Positions 8,430-41,545 of a stretch of DNA of 64,000 bases are shown piece after piece; within the stretch, counting starts at the first letter, position 1; each line of letters starts with the position of its first letter. The position numbers and the translations under genes were made by a program. The notes under the pieces are model-generated. The model did not search any database, had not been told where the DNA came from, and saw nothing but the letters and a program-made list of their open reading frames with translations. This DNA comes from Planctomycetota bacterium (GTDB lineage Bacteria > Planctomycetota > UBA8108 > JACQVS01). Where the stretch lies: NCBI GenBank assembly GCA_028280485.1, contig JANQLS010000101.1, forward strand, positions 1 to 64,000, written 5' to 3'.

Positions 8430-8595
8430 CTAATTAGTTTTTATTGAATCTTACTCCTTCGGAGGAAGATTCAACCGTTCCAGCAAATCTCCGATTTGCT
8501 TTCACTCCGCTAAACATAGACTCTACGAGTCTACGTCTGCGGCCGAGTTGATCTCAACTCGGCTTAGCTCCTGTTTATTCAACAGGAACTAATTA
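8430..8595. repeat. 166-bp five-hairpin structured repeat, copy A
   Basis: About 85% identical by hand alignment (24 mismatches, no indels) to 37323-37488; five consecutive stem-loops. Confidence 0.85.
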
Positions 8596-8623: not shown

Positions 8624-10681
8624 TTGAGTCAACTCATTTTTAACTCTCATAGTTGGATCCATTCCCCACAAAGCCTCGAGAACTTTGGTGGCTTTGTATT
8701 GAACAATTTGGGTAAAGAACGATTTGAGTCGTTTCTTTGTTTTTTGCAGAGTGAAGATTCTCTTTATGTTTATCCAGAGTTGCCTCGTCGTCGATTACGA
8801 AAGGTGGTGAGTCAGTTACTTCAACTCGATTGGACCGCTAGGCCCCGGGATACCTTCTTAAAAATATTAGAAAGCAGTGGGCATGGATCTGCCGTTGAAC
8901 TCGGAACGAAAATGATCTGGAGATGGATCCAGCCTGAAGGTTCTCAAAAGCCCTTGGGAGCGATCGCTTACGTTCTCAAGCCTGGAGAGGAAGATCCATT
9001 CGCTCAACAGGGATCATTGATCGAGTCCTTCGCTCAAGAGATCATCTCCTGCAACAAGTTGGTTCAACGATTTTCTCAAATCGCTAACGATTCCGACTAC
9101 ATCTTTTCAAGTATCAATCGCATCGGTTGTTTGCTTCTCCAGCGGGCTAGTCGTCCTCAATTACTGGCTGCGTTGGTGGATTTGGCCATCTATTTAAGTC
9201 GATCTGAAGTGGGTGCTCTCTTGGTTAAAGAGCCAGGGGGAGGCTACCAAAGTGAAGTTGAATTAGGGTTCGATCCCGATCTTGTTCAAAGGTTGCAATT
9301 GATACCCGGTAACGAAACCGTTCTCGAGAGCTTAGAGCGAACGGGAAGAGCGGTGGTTATCGATGATGTATCGGGACCTACAATCAAAGCTCCGCGAGAA
9401 TTCACTGGGTCGATCAAGGCGCTGACGATGATTCCCATCTTCAGTAATGACGCCCAGGTTGGAGTTCTCTGCCTCGCTAGTGGAGAAGCCGGAAAAGACG
9501 TTTCGACCAATGAACTCAAATCTCTCGAAACCCTTTCTGCAGTCATTTCGCTGGCGATTGAGAATGAAATTCTAACTCAAAAAGTTGCTGAAGGGTTCCA
9601 TCAAGGTGAAGAGTCATGGGGGTTTGATCGTTTCATCATTCAAAACCTTCTCGATGCCCTTCCTAACGCCGTATTGTTGGGAAATGATAGAGGGAAGTGG
9701 GTTTATCAAAATAAGCAAGCAAAGAGTCTTTTAAAGAATCAGCGGGGAGTGAAAAAACAAAGCGTCGATCCACAAATCAAAGATTGGTTTGAGAATCATT
9801 GGAGGAAATGTCCGACGAAGGATCGCGAAGTCCTCTTACCCTTCCAGTCGAGCGAGGGGCTCGCCATGGTGGTTTCCACCCAGCCTCTCTCGATTCGAGT
9901 CGGATTAGAGACTCATGTGTTCTATATGAGCTCACTCGAGCTGAGCGCTACAAATACGGCTGAAAATCTAAAATACTCTCCCGAAACCTTGAGGATCTCT
10001 TTAGGAAAAATTCGCTTGGGAGTGGATCTGTTAACTCGTTGGGCGACTCGCTTAAATACAGATTCCGATGTGGAACGTTTCAATGCCTCGCGAAAAGCTT
10101 TAGTGCGATCGATCTCTCATTTAGAACGTCATCTCGATGATGGAACTGAATCAGTGGGAGAAGATTTTGAGGTGGCAGAAAAGTCGATCGACTTTTTCGC
10201 TTCTTTTGATGCGGCACTCGATAAATATCAAGTGGAACAGCCGCTCCGAGCTTGGCATCGACCAGTGGATTGGCCTCAGGGTCAATGGGTGAGAGCTCAC
10301 TCTGAGAAATTAGAAAACGCACTATTTAAAATCTTATCTACAATCTGCTCATCGGCTTCGATTGACAAGATGATCAAAATTTCGGTGATGGAAGATGCCG
10401 ATCAGTTGATTTTAGCTTTCGATTTTGAATCGGTTCACATCGAGGTCCAAGAAGACCTGATGGCTCAATTAGACTCTGGAAGGCCGAATGCTATCAGTGG
10501 ATTTCCTGGTTTGGTGAACGCGCTTCATTACATTCAAAGGATCGAAGGTACGTTTGTCGGGGCGGGACACCCAGAAGGTTACTGTCGACTCGAGCTGGCT
10601 CTGCCCATTACGGAGGCCGAGACTTTTGTAGAGAATGCGATTGAAGATCTAACTCAAAACGATTTGGAGCTTGAACTATGA
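8624..10681 (+). CDS. GAF-containing sensor histidine kinase-like protein, probably degenerate
   Basis: GAF-like region ~150-320, PAS-like ~335-440, HK-like C-terminus lacking a recognisable H-box and N-box; TTG start. Confidence 0.6.
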   Translation: MSQLIFNSHSWIHSPQSLENFGGFVLNNLGKERFESFLCFLQSEDSLYVYPELPRRRLRKVVSQLLQLDWTARPRDTFLKILESSGHGSAVELGTKMIWRWIQPEGSQKPLGAIAYVLKPGEEDPFAQQGSLIESFAQEIISCNKLVQRFSQIANDSDYIFSSINRIGCLLLQRASRPQLLAALVDLAIYLSRSEVGALLVKEPGGGYQSEVELGFDPDLVQRLQLIPGNETVLESLERTGRAVVIDDVSGPTIKAPREFTGSIKALTMIPIFSNDAQVGVLCLASGEAGKDVSTNELKSLETLSAVISLAIENEILTQKVAEGFHQGEESWGFDRFIIQNLLDALPNAVLLGNDRGKWVYQNKQAKSLLKNQRGVKKQSVDPQIKDWFENHWRKCPTKDREVLLPFQSSEGLAMVVSTQPLSIRVGLETHVFYMSSLELSATNTAENLKYSPETLRISLGKIRLGVDLLTRWATRLNTDSDVERFNASRKALVRSISHLERHLDDGTESVGEDFEVAEKSIDFFASFDAALDKYQVEQPLRAWHRPVDWPQGQWVRAHSEKLENALFKILSTICSSASIDKMIKISVMEDADQLILAFDFESVHIEVQEDLMAQLDSGRPNAISGFPGLVNALHYIQRIEGTFVGAGHPEGYCRLELALPITEAETFVENAIEDLTQNDLELEL

Positions 10682-16197: not shown

Positions 16198-16295
16198 TGG
16201 CGGGAGTGCATGGGAATCGAACCCACCTGCGACGTTGTTCGCGCCGCACCGTGGCTTTGAAGGCCAGGGGCCCCACCAGGCGACCTCTCACTCCC
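16198..16295 (-). tRNA. selC: tRNA-Sec (UCA)
   Basis: Reverse strand GGGAGTGAGAGGTCGCC...CTTCAAAGCCA...TGCGGCG-CGAACAA-CGTCGCA (7-bp variable arm) GGTTCGATTCCC...CACTCCCGCCA; anticodon TCA, encoded CCA. Confidence 0.9.
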
Positions 16296-16372
16296 GCATA
16301 GTGAAATCAGACTCAGTGGGAACTAATAATTTTAGCGGGGTAAAGTTTGAGGTCAAGGAGTGGGTTGGATCA
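16256..16372. repeat. 117-bp direct repeat, copy 1 (5' half of tRNA-Sec plus upstream flank)
   Basis: 113/117 identical by hand to 19044-19160; starts in the anticodon loop. Confidence 0.9.
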
Positions 16373-16427
16373 ATTGCCTTTTAGGGTCTTATCCCTCGCT
16401 AAAGCTTCGGGCTTGGAATGGACTTCA

Positions 16428-16592
16428 ATTTCAAGCCCGAAGTGTCAACGAGGGTTCGGGTTCAATGCGCTCAAAAGCGCAATGGGATGTTAGGCCTCAC
16501 GCCAGTGTCGTCTCCAAAGCAGATTGTTCGCCTGCAATTGGTCGCTCGATCAGATGAATAGTTCGGCACTCGCTAACGCTTCGCGCTTGAAA
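16428..16592. repeat. About 165-bp inverted-terminal repeat element (TTTCAAGCCCGAAG... family)
   Basis: TCAAGCCCGAAGTGTCAACGAGGG...CACTCGCTAACGCTTCGCGCTTGAAA. Confidence 0.8.
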
Positions 16593-16754
16593 TGGATTTT
16601 GCCTCTCAAGCCCGAAGCATTAGCGAGGGATAATTGAAGCGCCAATCGGGTTAAATATTGATTTAGTATAAAAATTTATAATCATAATAGTTGTTCCGTC
16701 TTGGGTGCGATTTATTGCATTCGATTGGTCCATTGAGCAGCTTAAGGATTTAAA

Positions 16755-17144
16755 ATGGATTTGAATACACACCTTCAATCGGTGAAAAGTAAAGAAGGTC
16801 TGGTAAATTTCGTCGATGTGCTACAAAAAGATTTAAGTGAGAATCCAAACAACTGGGAGAACTCTAATCTCATTAACTATTTAAATGCAAGGGCAGGCTG
16901 GGTTAGAGGGGCAGGTCAGGGGAGTTGGGAGTTGATCTTAGATTAGGGTACTAACGAAAGAGTTCAAGTGGCTCAAGTTTTACATGAAACGCTTAAGATT
17001 CCACTTGTGGAGGCATTAACGATTACAAGGAAAGACCCTGCTGTACTTTTTCGTGGGACTTTTCAAGAGGTTGAATGGCTTAGGGAAAAGTTCATTGATC
17101 GAGGAATAGTTAAAGGAATTCAGTCTAAAAAATACCCTGATTAG
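16755..17144 (+). pseudogene. Reading frame interrupted by an in-frame TAG (16944-16946); apparently chimeric
   Basis: MDLNTHLQSVKSKEGLVNFVDVLQKDLSENPNNWENSNLINYLNARAGWVRGAGQGSWELILD*GTNERVQVAQVLHETLKIPLVEALTITRKDPAVLFRGTFQEVEWLREKFIDRGIVKGIQSKKYPD* in one frame. Confidence 0.65.
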
Positions 17145-17171
17145 TAACAGAGCTGAAAGAACGAATAGATA

Positions 17172-17606
17172 GTGAAGAAGAACCAGGAGTTTTTATTTTT
17201 TATTAGTGAGGATTTTAACGATTCATTGATTGAATCCGTTCAAAGCTTTGTATTTAACTTGGCTGATATTAGGGAGTGGAGGTCGAGTGCTCCAGAGTTT
17301 GTCAATGAAATCGAACTACCAGAGAATCCTGATTTGGACTTACCAATTAATACTCTCGGTGGAATTTTGTGCCTTTGTAAGCCGGGCGAAACATCAGCAA
17401 TAATTGAAAAGAGGCTATTTGAAGATTTTAATTTTTTAATGAATAGGTTAGCTCTGTTCTCTGTTGAAATTGACCATGAGTTTGAATTCGAACTCGATGG
17501 GATTCATGTTGGCTCAATAGAAAAGGGAGAGCTTGATTCATTATTGCGAGATGGTCTACTTGGTGAATGGGAAAAACGCTTAATCGATTCTGGTGCAGAT
17601 GATTGA
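17172..17606 (+). CDS. Hypothetical small acidic protein (possible orphan immunity-type)
   Basis: 144-aa ORF with GTG start inside the tRNA-Sec island. Confidence 0.55.
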   Translation: MKKNQEFLFFISEDFNDSLIESVQSFVFNLADIREWRSSAPEFVNEIELPENPDLDLPINTLGGILCLCKPGETSAIIEKRLFEDFNFLMNRLALFSVEIDHEFEFELDGIHVGSIEKGELDSLLRDGLLGEWEKRLIDSGADD

Positions 17607-17832
17607 GAAACTCAAATCTCCTTATTTTTGGATTTTCATAAGTGTAGGGCTTGGAGTCTGTGGGATCTTTTTAATGATTCTTGGAAAGTTCGTTGAAAGT
17701 GAGATCATTAAAGACATCGGATTTTATTTGGGGTGGCCCCTTCTATTGATTGAGTTCGGAATAGTTATATTTATTATCCCTTTGCTAATTTGGTTAATCT
17801 GGAAGGAGGGAAAAGCAGATAAGGATTCATAA
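17593..17832 (+). CDS. Small two-TM membrane protein
   Basis: Two hydrophobic segments; overlaps the upstream ORF. Confidence 0.5.
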   Translation: MQMIEKLKSPYFWIFISVGLGVCGIFLMILGKFVESEIIKDIGFYLGWPLLLIEFGIVIFIIPLLIWLIWKEGKADKDS

Positions 17833-17937
17833 TGAATTAACTGCCACGAGATTGAGCTCAAAGCTCTTGTTGGTAGAACTGTAAGCGTAGAGCGTTGTGG
17901 GATTCATGAATTCATACTTATAAATTTGGAGCAGTAG

Positions 17938-18333
17938 ATGATGGCAGATTATTTAGAGGCTGAGAAAATAGCTTGGAATTACATTCAGGATGAGATCTTT
18001 AAATGCAAGATACCTGCCTGGGTTTATAAGAACGCCTTATGTGATACAAGTCAGGTAAAAGAAGGAGTTTGGAGCGTGGTAACTTCCCTATATAAAAAAA
18101 GAATCCTAAAGGAAGGAGAAGCATGGGAGATTCAGGAAGACGGAGAGAAGGTCTTCACCCAGATTGATGAGCAAACTGGAAAGAAATGGTATGTTCTAAT
18201 AGATGATGAAATAGATGAATCTCGTATGTTGGATTTCTTTCATGTAGAAGTAGATCTGGCGACTAAGAAGGTAACGGTTCTCAACCTTGTTGATTATAAA
18301 AAATATAAGGAAGATGATTTTGATTATAAGTAG
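17938..18333 (+). CDS. Hypothetical small protein
   Basis: 131-aa ORF, AT-rich, in the island. Confidence 0.6.
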   Translation: MMADYLEAEKIAWNYIQDEIFKCKIPAWVYKNALCDTSQVKEGVWSVVTSLYKKRILKEGEAWEIQEDGEKVFTQIDEQTGKKWYVLIDDEIDESRMLDFFHVEVDLATKKVTVLNLVDYKKYKEDDFDYK

Positions 18334-18392
18334 GGCTCAAATTACCTTTAGCCCTTTGTGATCCATTTGAGTGAAGGGATAGGATTTACGCA

Positions 18393-18869
18393 ATGACTCT
18401 AAATGAGCTTATCGAAATCTTTAGAAAATTAGGGGCTGACGACCCTGAAGGTTGGGCTGGTAGCCATTTGAGAGAGGGAATTCCTCAATTAGCTCGATTC
18501 CTCATTCTCAAGGGGGCGTGGGAGGGCGTTACCGATGATGGTGGCGAATGGATCGATACTTTGTTAGCGAATACGCCAAAGGATTCAAAAGAACCTTACA
18601 GCGGGCAGGCGCACGCAATTCGTGAGATGCTTTCTCACGGGGTTTCAAAAGAATGTATTACCGACCTTGTTCGAGGTGCAGAAGCAGCAATGATATTTCA
18701 TATTTGCAACCTTCTCGAAGATCCAGGCTCTGTGGAAGGGAATGAGTACGTCAATTGGGCGCTTATGCAAGTTGACGATAATGATGAGATATGTGGAACG
18801 ATCAATGGATTGCACGAAAGTGTGTTGGAGACGGATCCAACGGGCCGCGAGATGCGACCGAGGGAATAA
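18393..18869 (+). CDS. Conserved hypothetical protein (C-terminus GLHESVLETDPTGREMRPR)
   Basis: 158-aa ORF; recognisable conserved-looking C-terminal motif. Confidence 0.65.
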   Translation: MTLNELIEIFRKLGADDPEGWAGSHLREGIPQLARFLILKGAWEGVTDDGGEWIDTLLANTPKDSKEPYSGQAHAIREMLSHGVSKECITDLVRGAEAAMIFHICNLLEDPGSVEGNEYVNWALMQVDDNDEICGTINGLHESVLETDPTGREMRPRE

Positions 18870-18980
18870 CACTCAAGTTATTTCCTTATCTACTCAGAGC
18901 CGATTGCTAAGAATCAATTGTGCTAATTCTGTGTTAGTTCCAACTACAACCACTCCACTCAGCCCATATCGAGATACTAA

Positions 18981-19007
18981 AAAACCCCGGCTTTCACCGG
19001 GGTTTTT
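18981..19007 (+). terminator. Rho-independent terminator
   Basis: AAAACCCCGGctttcaCCGGGGTTTTT. Confidence 0.9.
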
Positions 19008-19043
19008 GTATTTCAGTTGGTTTGAGTCTGACCTTTTTAAGTA

Positions 19044-19160
19044 TTTGAAGGCCAGGGGCCCCACCAGGCGACCTCTCACTCCCGCATAGTGAAATCAGAC
19101 TCAGTGGGAACTGATGATTTTAGCCGGGTATAGTTTGAGGTCAAGGAGTGGGTTGGATCA
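19044..19160. repeat. 117-bp direct repeat, copy 2 (partial tRNA-Sec 5' half plus flank)
   Basis: Matches 16256-16372 from the anticodon loop outward; no 3' half of the tRNA present. Confidence 0.9.
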
Positions 19161-19188
19161 GTTACCTACAAATCAAATTTAATCTACG

Positions 19189-20809: not shown

Positions 20810-20823
20810 GAATAGATTCATAG

Positions 20824-20869
20824 CATAAAAAAAGCTCGATACCCAAAGGGTGTCGAGCTTTTTTTATGC
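20824..20869. terminator. Bidirectional rho-independent terminator
   Basis: ATAAAAAAAGCTCGATACCCaaaGGGTGTCGAGCTTTTTTTAT between convergent genes. Confidence 0.93.
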
Positions 20870-20892
20870 TTGTTGGGTTCAGGGAAAGAGCT

Positions 20893-23907: not shown

Positions 23908-25341
23908 TTAGAGGGATTTGAGTGCCTCGAGCAGGTGATCTTCTTCTTCTAAACTCACCGTTCTGAAGTCGAGCCAGACTTGGTCATTTTGCAAACGAGA
24001 AAAGATCACGGGCTGATGGTCTCTCAGTTTTTGAGCGAGCTCCGTGGATGACAGATCGGGATGGGATATCGATACCGACCAGGATGGGATCTCCTGAGCT
24101 GGAAGAGCCCCGCTTCCGGCTTGGGCTCCGGAGGACACGACTTCAGTCTTCCAATTCGGTTTTTCTTGTTGGAGTCGATCTTTAAAACTATCCGCCCGAG
24201 TTTTGATCGTCGAATCGGGCTGAGAGATCATTCTTAAAGTGGGGAGCTTTGAACTCAGACTTTCAGGGTCTCGGTAAAGTTTCAAAGTGGCTTCAAGGGC
24301 GATCAAGGTCATCTTATCCACACGGAGGGCGCGGAATAAGGGATGAGCTCGGAGTTTATCGATCGTCGTTTTTGTGCCGACAATTATTCCTGCCTGGGGA
24401 CCTCCAAGTAATTTATCACCTGAGAAACAAACGGCGTCAGCTCCGGCTTCTACCGATGCTGTGACCAGAGGTTCCTTTCGAAAACCGTACTGGGAGACAT
24501 CGACAAAGCAGCCTGAGCCTAAGTCACTGACGACAGGGATGTCATGCTTTTGACCCAAGGCCACCAATTCTTCTAAAGGAGTGTGACGGGCGAAGCCTGC
24601 GATCTCATAGTTAGAAGTGTGGACCTCCAAGAGGAGGCCTGTGTTCTCACTCAGCGCTTTTTCGTAGTCTCGAATGTAAGTGCGATTCGTAGCGCCGACC
24701 TCTACGAGCTGAGCCCCACTTTCTTCCATGATGTCAGGGATACGGAACGAGCCGCCGATTTCGACGAGTTGGCCCCTTGAGATAACTACTTCTCTGTCTC
24801 GAGCTAAACCGGCGAGAATCAAAAGAGTCGCAGCCGCGTTGTTATTGACAACCGTCGCGGCTTCGGCGCCGGTCATCTCTTTTAAGATTTCGGCGACATA
24901 GGCTTCACGTTTGTTGCGTTCACCGGTTTGAGCGTCGACTTCGACTAAAGTGTAGCCCGACAATTCTTCGTGAAGTTGTTGAACGGCTTCGGGAGGAAGG
25001 AGGGCGCGCCCTAATCCTGTGTGGAGGATGATACCGGTCGCGTTGATCACCCTCCGATAATAGGCTTGGTGACGTGAATCGAGTTTCGCCTGAGTGGTCG
25101 AAGCGATGGCAGCGGGTGAGAGTTGACCATTGAGGCTGGGGAGAGTTCCATTCTTCGCATGGCTCTCGATGATGCTTTCACGAAGTTGAGTCAAGGACTC
25201 GCGCAATTGATTCACCACTTCCTCCCGCGGGAAGGATTTTAGCAGAGGCTCAAACTCGGGGCTGATCAACAGCTTATCGATCTTGGGAAGCTGTCGTAGC
25301 GTATCCTGAAGTGAGGGGGCGTTTGGAGAATCGTTGGACAT
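23908..25341 (-). CDS. selA: L-seryl-tRNA(Sec) selenium transferase
   Basis: RRVINATGIILHTGLGRALLPPEA; VNNNAAATLLIL; VSDLGSGCFVD; FSGDKLLGGPQAGIIVG. Confidence 0.96.
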   Translation of the reverse strand: MSNDSPNAPSLQDTLRQLPKIDKLLISPEFEPLLKSFPREEVVNQLRESLTQLRESIIESHAKNGTLPSLNGQLSPAAIASTTQAKLDSRHQAYYRRVINATGIILHTGLGRALLPPEAVQQLHEELSGYTLVEVDAQTGERNKREAYVAEILKEMTGAEAATVVNNNAAATLLILAGLARDREVVISRGQLVEIGGSFRIPDIMEESGAQLVEVGATNRTYIRDYEKALSENTGLLLEVHTSNYEIAGFARHTPLEELVALGQKHDIPVVSDLGSGCFVDVSQYGFRKEPLVTASVEAGADAVCFSGDKLLGGPQAGIIVGTKTTIDKLRAHPLFRALRVDKMTLIALEATLKLYRDPESLSSKLPTLRMISQPDSTIKTRADSFKDRLQQEKPNWKTEVVSSGAQAGSGALPAQEIPSWSVSISHPDLSSTELAQKLRDHQPVIFSRLQNDQVWLDFRTVSLEEEDHLLEALKSL

Positions 25342-29418: not shown

Positions 29419-29557
29419 TGAGGAGTGAGGACGTACCTGTAATTGAGTTCAATTTTTGGATGCAAAGACGGACTCAAATCGATCGAGCCGCGAATGATTA
29501 TAGCTTCAGTCGCGAAGAGTTTCTTCCCTTTTGATGAAGTGTTCGCAAATGAACCAT

Positions 29558-29720
29558 TTCAAGCCCGAAGTGTTAACGAGGGCCAGGTTTCAATTGGCTT
29601 CTAAGCGCAAAAGAATTTCAGGGGTAGCGCCAGCGCCGACTCTAAAACTACGAATTCGTCTCAAATGTCTGACTCGATCAAATCGATCGTTCGTCACTCG
29701 CTGACGCTTCGCGCTTGAAA
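29558..29720. repeat. About 165-bp CAAGCCCGAAG-family element, tandem copy 1
   Basis: TTTCAAGCCCGAAGTGTTAACGAGGG...CACTCGCTGACGCTTCGCGCTTGAAA. Confidence 0.85.
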
Positions 29721-29729
29721 TTTACTCCA

Positions 29730-29890
29730 TTTCAAGCCCGAAGTGTTAACGAGGGCCAGGTTTCAATTGACTTATATGCGTTAAAGAATTTCAGACGTAG
29801 CGCCAGCGCGACGCCAAAACCATGAATTCGTCTCAAATGACTAACTCGATAATGTGAATAGTCGTCACTCGCTGACGCTTCGGGCTTGGA
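29730..29890. repeat. About 165-bp CAAGCCCGAAG-family element, tandem copy 2
   Basis: Same ends and interior as 29558-29720. Confidence 0.85.
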
Positions 29891-29971
29891 ATGGAGTTCG
29901 CGCTTCCAACGATTGGTTTTTTGTGTTAATTAGATAGATTCCCTAAATTTTTTCTTAACCCCTATCCTTCC

Positions 29972-31630: not shown

Positions 31631-31728
31631 TCACCCCAGGAAGACCGAAGCTTTAGCGAGGGATAGGATAGTAACAAATTTAAAAGCACCTTGGCATTTG
31701 AGGCGTGACGTCAGCGCCGTTTCCTTCA

Positions 31729-31892
31729 TTTCAAGCCCGAAGTGTCAACGAGGGTCGGGATACAGATTGATTTATAAATAAAGAAGAATTTGAGGCGTAG
31801 CGCCAGCGCCGACTCCAAAACCATTAATTCGTCTCAAAGGACTGACTCGTTCATGTCAACAGTCGTCACTCGCTGACGCTTCGCGCTTGGAA
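31729..31892. repeat. About 165-bp CAAGCCCGAAG-family element
   Basis: TTTCAAGCCCGAAGTGTCAACGAGGG...CACTCGCTGACGCTTCGCGCTTGGAA. Confidence 0.85.
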
Positions 31893-31996
31893 TGGCTTCG
31901 CGCTTGAAATGGGAATCGTGCTTGGAATGGTTAACACATTAATACTCGGATTTTATTCGTGTCGGGAACCCTGGATACGGTACGATCGTTTTTCCA

Positions 31997-37322: not shown

Positions 37323-37488
37323 CTAATTAGTTTCTGTTGAATCTTGCTCCTGCGGAGCCTGATTCAACCGTTTCAGCAAATCACAGATTTGCTTTCACTC
37401 CGCTGAACATAGGCTCTGTGAGCCAATGTCCGCGGCCGAGTTGATCCCAACTCGGCTTAATTCCTGTTGATTAAACAGGAATTAATTA
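37323..37488. repeat. 166-bp five-hairpin structured repeat, copy B
   Basis: Aligns without gaps to 8430-8595. Confidence 0.85.
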
Positions 37489-40455: not shown

Positions 40456-40465
40456 ACAAACCACA

Positions 40466-40632
40466 TTCCAAGCGCGAAGCGTTAGCGAGTGCCGAAACAT
40501 TTCGTTGGATCGAATTCGTTGTTTTAGGCGAACTAATCATTTTTGGAAACGACGCTGGCGCTACGCCTGAAATCCTATTGCGCTAATAAGTCAATTTAGA
40601 TCCTGACCCTCGCTGACGCTTCGGGCTTGAAA
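40466..40632. repeat. About 165-bp CAAGCCCGAAG-family element, inverted, tandem copy 1
   Basis: TTCCAAGCGCGAAGCGTTAGCGAGTG...CCCTCGCTGACGCTTCGGGCTTGAAA. Confidence 0.85.
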
Positions 40633-40641
40633 TGGGGCAAA

Positions 40642-40806
40642 TTTCAAGCGCGAAGCGTTAGCGAGTGATGAACATTTCGTTTGGTCGAATTCATGGTTTT
40701 AGACGAATGATTTGTTTTGGAAACGGCACTGGCCCTACGCCTGAAATCCTATTGCGCTTATAAGTCAATCTGGATTCTGACCCTCGCTTACACTTCGGGC
40801 TTGAAA
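40642..40806. repeat. About 165-bp CAAGCCCGAAG-family element, inverted, tandem copy 2
   Basis: TTTCAAGCGCGAAGCGTTAGCGAGTG...CCCTCGCTTACACTTCGGGCTTGAAA. Confidence 0.85.
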
Positions 40807-41545
40807 TAGAAGTTAAAAACCGTCCAGATATGAGCTTTACATTAAAAAGTTATGCTCGCGGAACTGACCCAATTTAATGCAATTTCTATCTTATCCTCAC
40901 CGGGGCACTGCTTTTGATATCCCAACACCGCGTGTTGATATTGAACACACTGTTTTATTTGAATACTCCTCAATTGCTTCAGCAGCGCCAAATTCGCACT
41001 TTATTGGAACTTGACCTTCCCAGAACCCAGATCTTTTCAGGCCTAACAGTAATCTTTCAAATCAAAGATATTGGGAATGAGCTTTGCAAGATGAGTCTCA
41101 GGGAAATATAGGCTTTCTCTGGATTTCTCCCTAAAAGCTCTTAGGAGCTTCCTTTGAACTCCAGAGTTTATTTCTGCTTATTTCTGCGAATTAGCGAAGT
41201 AAACGTTACTCCCTCTTTATCGAGAGTGATGGACTTCGGATTCATTCTCTATCCCTGGGTTGGGGATAGTAAATGTCTTTCTTGCCTGGTCTGGGAAGAG
41301 ACATAAATCTTGATTGAGATCCCATTTATAGTTGAGGGCTTTCAATCGCACTGCTTGTCTACTCCAGCACAAGCGGATTTATGTTTCTTGTGTTCCCATG
41401 ATCTATTTCTTTGACTCTTTTTGTGCGTAAAAGCATTCAGTGTCTCTCGGCTTGAAGGTTTTGCGTGGTTTGGATGGCACTCGCTATGAGTTTCATCCTT
41501 GGCAAAGCATTCCAGCCCCCGAATTGTCTCTTCAGGATACCTGCT

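Follow-up and report, generated by a model that had tools for sequence, protein, structure and literature searches.

Background

Most elements that target tRNA genes replace the 3' end and do not touch the promoter, and the selC islands of enterobacteria duplicate the 3' end of selC, the gene for selenocysteine tRNA (tRNA-Sec). Insertion into the 5' half makes the host gene dependent on a promoter brought in by the element. Islands of this 5' type are already known and are rare. Of the 3,919 islands in Islander, 3,760 have a 3' and 159 a 5' tRNA fragment, and about half are at the anticodon site (PMC4383910). A 5' island is defined there as an intact tRNA gene with a terminal, same-orientation 5' fragment on its 5' side, a length of 2-200 kb and a tyrosine integrase gene within the island or overlapping it (PMC4383910). 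The archaeal element pTN3 of Thermococcus nautili uses the 5' half of a tRNA gene as attB; its attP and attB have 41 bp in common, reaching into the anticodon, and the rebuilt tRNA gene is parted from its original promoter (PMC5495485, PMC8371274). Cis-mobilizable elements (CIMEs) keep attL and attR and are integrase-less (PMC5704250).

We analysed a window of 64,000 nucleotides (the whole stretch of DNA, to which all unprefixed positions refer) on C95, a 155-kb contig of a Planctomycetota draft genome (9.37 Mb, 205 contigs, 91% complete). A preliminary description had pointed to an island bracketed by a partial duplication of selC and called the 5'-half arrangement unusual; rare it is, but it has precedents in ~4% of the Islander islands (PMC4383910). 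As in these, the element would have supplied the 5' part of the tRNA, the displaced 5' fragment is found upstream with the orientation of the tRNA, and the crossover would fall in the anticodon loop (class A). The selC island has the intact tRNA gene and the 5' fragment, and its length (2,788 bp) lies within the Islander range, but it contains no tyrosine integrase. Like pTN3, it appears to have targeted a tRNA 5' half and to have left the rebuilt tRNA away from its original promoter. Unlike the selC island, which has no integrase and whose block holds the whole promoter, pTN3 is archaeal and carries attP within an integrase gene that is split on integration. The island resembles a CIME in retaining att-like sites and in lacking integration and transfer genes; none of its intact ORFs has a family match. 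An ICE or IME of the same specificity, from which it might derive or with which it might have accreted, was not found in this genome; two relatives have 5'-side integrase genes at selC. PICI-like phage satellites are marked by packaging, regulatory or replication genes and a helper phage, whereas no ORF of the island matched a PHROG family at E < 0.05. The target gene is the same as in the enterobacterial selC islands, but here the 5' half is duplicated instead. The locus should be called an integrase-less remnant of a 5'-type tDNA island that combines known themes, the mirror image of the well-known 3' insertion mode. The selC gene is normally single-copy and specialised, and the case is clean enough for both the crossover point and the promoter swap to be read from the sequence.

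Duplication of the 5' half of selC

The functional selC gene (16198-16295, minus strand, anticodon TCA) was identified by ARAGORN and by Rfam (RF01852, 70 bits). The selA gene (23908-25341) is located upstream of it and has the same direction. A block containing the tRNA-Sec 5' half, the leader and the promoter that now serve selC (16256-16379, minus strand) recurs as a direct repeat on the same strand at 19044-19167, with a spacing of 2,788 bp. The two att-like copies are identical at 118 of 124 bp (95%), and because the BLAST E value of the pair is 7e-52, the repeat is not due to chance. The 113 identities in 117 bp reported earlier for 16256-16372 hold, with exactly four mismatches (16325, 16328, 16337 and 16343), as does the offset; the repeat is slightly longer than noted, and the additional stretch carries the mismatches at 16373 and 16376.

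As the preliminary description had proposed, the block begins in the anticodon loop. Its first base is the last base of the 7-nt loop (CTTCAAA, 16256-16262, minus strand) in the Rfam alignment, so the repeat starts at the 3' edge of the presumed crossover (overlap) region. From there, it covers the tRNA 5' half, identical at 40 of 40 nucleotides, and 84 bp upstream of the gene, rather than the ~75 bp given before, with the apparent selC promoter included. This promoter-like site of the sigma-70 type, found by consensus scan, reads TTGACC (-35), 16 nt and TAAAAT (-10) in both copies (16329-16356 and 19117-19144, minus strand). None of the six mismatches touches the tRNA or a hexamer; they are found between the -10 hexamer and the gene, within the spacer, or farther upstream than the -35 hexamer (hypergeometric p ~0.035 by our own estimate, the null being that mismatches fall anywhere in the 124 bp).

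An intact tRNA-Sec was recovered by ARAGORN when the outer flanks were joined in silico (16255 to 19044). The same program found no tRNA-Sec at the circle junction or in the right copy by itself. The left arm of the displaced copy (AAGTA-TTTGAAG-GCCAG) is without the dyad symmetry typical of core sites. A further direct repeat in the window, 166 bp long and 86% identical (8430-8595 and 37323-37488), is unrelated to the island.

Interior of the island

The 2.66-kb interior comprises a REP-like repeat and five small co-oriented ORFs on the plus strand, one of which is broken. Its GC content is 39.7%, against a mean of 45.6%, which bears out the AT-richness noted before, but only in a mild form: the value corresponds to the 7th percentile among 665 windows of the same genome, the tetranucleotide usage is ordinary, and the last ORF reaches 47.6% GC.

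The REP-like palindromic repeat (16389-16633), delimited by BLAST and inverted repeats, starts 10 bp inside the left copy and has related pieces genome-wide. With the island as a BLAST query against its own genome, 137 matches were obtained, nearly all to this stretch; the REP-like stretch alone recurs, and no second copy of the island was found in the genome. The repeat, with the core CCCTCGCTAACGCTTCGGGCTTG, is also present at 29556-29901, 31724-31898 and 40464-40813, related pieces are found on many contigs, and C126:14429-16059 contains a tandem run.

The first gene (16755-17144) is broken. Its first 63 aa match the N-terminal part of DUF7660 (PF24693, 41.7 bits, profile positions 1-40 of 73), codon 64 is an in-frame TAG, and the frame stays open for 65 codons more, a part without family match. 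The whole has the appearance of two small genes fused by a deletion. By eye, the 65 codons past the TAG resemble a ribosomal L7/L12 C-terminal-like domain. The next three are orphan ORFs: one of 144 aa (17172-17606) with no homologue in 293 other Planctomycetota genomes, one of 79 aa (17593-17832) that is hydrophobic, membrane-like by eye and without Pfam match, and one of 131 aa (17938-18333) without family match. The last ORF (158 aa, 18393-18869) occurs sporadically: among 391 other Planctomycetota genomes, 3 have homologues, one of which (L134) is found among small orphan genes near a DUF1963 gene. Searches of the cargo against Pfam, PHROGs, NCBIfam and PADLOC returned no useful match except DUF7660, and AlphaFold models of the cargo, computed with no alignment, were poor (pLDDT 41 and 52). 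Our guess is that the cargo genes are accessory ones, perhaps of the immunity type.

The right end of the interior is formed by a bidirectional hairpin resembling an intrinsic terminator (18980-19007; -17.7 and -19.3 kcal/mol, z -4.4 and -5.0). The Rfam match to 'BSnc120' is this hairpin, and all Rfam matches other than tRNA-Sec were dismissed as chance. Outside the island, a terminator-like inverted repeat of 23 bp with 96% complementarity (20822-20870) was observed directly past a SpoU-type methyltransferase gene.

Recombinases and tRNA islands in the same genome

No recombinase gene is located between the repeats, in agreement with the earlier remark that no integrase is visible in the island. 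All nine of the nine PF00589 hits in the genome are on contigs other than C95, an integrase HMM found nothing among the ORFs of the window, and the serine integrase family PF07508 is absent from the genome. No recombinase of the genome (G000) could be attributed to the selC site.

All tRNAs found, with their flanks, were compared with 40 stretches of the genome that contain its tRNAs and most of its integrases. Displaced pieces of tRNA-Met, tRNA-Lys, tRNA-Asp and tRNA-Pro were detected, all of them 3' parts and each close to a tyrosine integrase gene; only tRNA-Sec, among the tRNAs compared in this genome, has a displaced 5' piece. The genome-wide check suggested earlier did turn up integrases and other tRNA islands, but none with a 5' fragment or tied to the selC site. 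In the Met, Lys and Asp blocks the duplication starts at the anticodon arm. The tRNA-Met piece (C117), 129 bp long and 85% identical, reaches from position 29 of the tRNA to a point 78 bp beyond the gene. The selC geometry mirrors that of the tRNA-Met island, running from the anticodon arm outward through the gene and into some 80 bp of flank. Like the selC island, the four islands have partial-tRNA direct repeats, but of the opposite (3') half and with an integrase beside the fragment. The tRNA-Met island extends over ~41 kb, with the fragment, which has an integrase beside it, at L170 (G000:C117:28720-28847) and the tRNA gene at L169 (tRNA-Met at C117:70217). The tRNA-Lys, tRNA-Asp and tRNA-Pro 3' fragments (L201, L199 and L168) are beside integrases on other contigs. 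A tRNA-Glu pair was rejected as an edge effect, the subject being the same tRNA cut at the end of a stretch.

Distribution of the second copy

A degenerate pattern of the tRNA-Sec 5' half, with at most two mismatches (<=2), was searched in 392 Planctomycetota genomes. It matched in 46 of them, with two copies only in the present genome and one copy in each of the other 45. When the whole tRNA and the upstream block were searched as DNA in 59 relatives, the upstream 84 bp was found only in this genome. The nearest relative compared (G001) belongs to the same family, with a 57% identical SelA. A SelA scan of GTDB genomes for a nearer one returned no same-genus genome, the best planctomycete being 45-46% identical. 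The nearest relatives have one selC 5'-half copy each and are too distant for junction comparison. Relatives sharing both copies, which the preliminary description had named as evidence against an insertion, were not seen at the family, order or class level. A search of IMG/VR viral contigs with the tRNA-Sec 5'-half patterns and two island proteins found nothing.

Origin of the island

These features are probably explained by a site-specific insertion at the anticodon loop, with the promoter and the 5' half contributed by the element, followed by loss to an integrase-less, CIME-like remnant. A mobile element, or a segment framed by att sites, would have entered the chromosome at the anticodon loop of tRNA-Sec through strand exchange of the tyrosine-recombinase type across the 7 bp of the loop, and its attP would have borne a second version of the promoter and 5' half of selC. 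The resulting working selC would combine the old 3' half with the loop, 5' half and promoter of the element, and the original 5' half and promoter would have been displaced 2.8 kb upstream, to 19044-19167. The residue would be the 2.66-kb remnant with its small orphan genes, and transcription of selC would now start from the promoter of the element. Strand exchange of this type at the loop would be expected to give an identity that starts at the loop edge, an element side that keeps selC alive and a displaced copy that is outermost; we infer the class of the recombinase and the native status of the right copy from this arrangement.

The edge of the repeat is the edge of the anticodon loop, which argues for a crossover in the loop, and the block is exactly the promoter, leader and 5' half that a 5'-side insertion needs. 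The anatomy fits the anticodon-loop insertion with a duplicated 5' half proposed before, since the joined flanks give an intact gene and the arrangement is absent from the 45 other genomes matching the pattern. The six mismatches that spare the tRNA and the hexamers, the mirror-image 3' fragments next to integrases at four other tRNAs of the genome, and the integrase genes on the 5' side of selC in G001 and G047 point the same way. Several points speak against it, namely the ordinary tetranucleotides, the left arm without dyad and the lack of an assignable recombinase. The SelA scan contained no same-genus genome, hence no empty site was seen, and homologous recombination could also insert a circle with 124 bp of selC homology.

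Because the island has no integrase and its first gene is broken, a decayed CIME-like remnant is favoured over a complete satellite. A satellite would be a complete 2.8-kb unit moved by a recombinase encoded elsewhere, whether on another element, on a phage or on DNA missing from the MAG; the insertion site and geometry would be the same, and only the status of the unit would differ. This is unlikely, even though the copies are highly similar, with the tRNA part unchanged, the ORFs form a compact co-oriented run with a strong terminator just inside the right copy, and the genome has several unrelated tyrosine recombinases. The single island copy in the genome, the viral contigs without the 5'-half patterns or the two island proteins, the broken gene and the use of 3' halves by all integrases of the genome with readable targets argue against it. 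The satellite-like, trans-mobilised state and the decayed state are not separable here, but the TAG-interrupted fused gene appears to favour decay. A bolder version, to which we assign a very low probability, is that a complete trans-mobilised mini-element of ~2.7 kb targets the selC 5' half and usurps its promoter, making host tRNA-Sec expression element-dependent, and that the displaced promoter and half-tRNA produce a short terminator-ended RNA (the 5' half plus ~75 nt) with a role of its own.

A RecA-type homologous single crossover, in which a circle bore ~124 bp of the promoter and 5' half of selC by coincidence, would lead to the same direct-repeat geometry, and the 124-bp identity block exceeds most att cores. 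We nevertheless regard it as quite improbable, for it does not account for an identity that ends precisely at the edge of the anticodon loop and gives no reason for a circle to carry half of selC. Equally doubtful is a local duplication of the 124-bp block followed by accretion of unrelated genes with no mobile element. The REP-like repeats next to the left copy might mediate rearrangements and the base composition deviates only mildly, but the breakpoint at the loop edge, the coincidence of the block with a functional unit, the sporadic cargo and the precedent of tRNA islands in the same genome are against it. An assembly chimera of two loci or strains with the promoter and half of selC in common can hardly be credited, despite the draft MAG in 205 contigs and a repeat of about short-read length, as the copies differ at six sites, both are well inside one 155-kb contig with unique flanks, and there is no other copy in the genome.

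Integrases at selC in other Planctomycetota

Site-specific insertion at the 5' side of selC may not be confined to this genome. In G001, a 141-aa frame that immediately precedes selC and has its direction is like the N-terminal part of tyrosine integrases (truncated). It matched three larger frames, two of them confirmed as PF00589 by Pfam, at E = 2e-4 to 6e-4, and an integrase HMM at E = 0.0065, a weak but consistent indication that it is an N-terminal integrase fragment. Arc-like and excisionase-like (phrog_66, E 0.0014) genes adjoin it (L040:9332-10306). In G047, an intact tyrosine integrase of 384 aa is encoded 258 bp upstream of selC and points the same way (L238:8462-9616), followed by a primase/helicase-like gene (by eye) and other mobile-element-like genes; no close relative of this integrase was found among the recombinases of the present genome. 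Neither G001 nor G047 showed a displaced 5' fragment, so their integrases are only suggestive of 5'-side targeting. Together with the island described here, they suggest that mobile DNA may land repeatedly on the 5' side of selC in Planctomycetota. Because integrase-less islands escape tools such as Islander, the number of such remnants is probably underestimated.

Integrases at selC on the usual 3' side are found in G070 and G195. In G070, the open frame of the 3'-side integrase (L239:8829-10196) runs antisense into the tRNA gene. In G048, the 3' end of tRNA-Sec is present as a 24-bp exact repeat downstream of selC (L242:10056-10079 and 10243-10266), and contig C307 carries another tRNA-Sec 3' piece.
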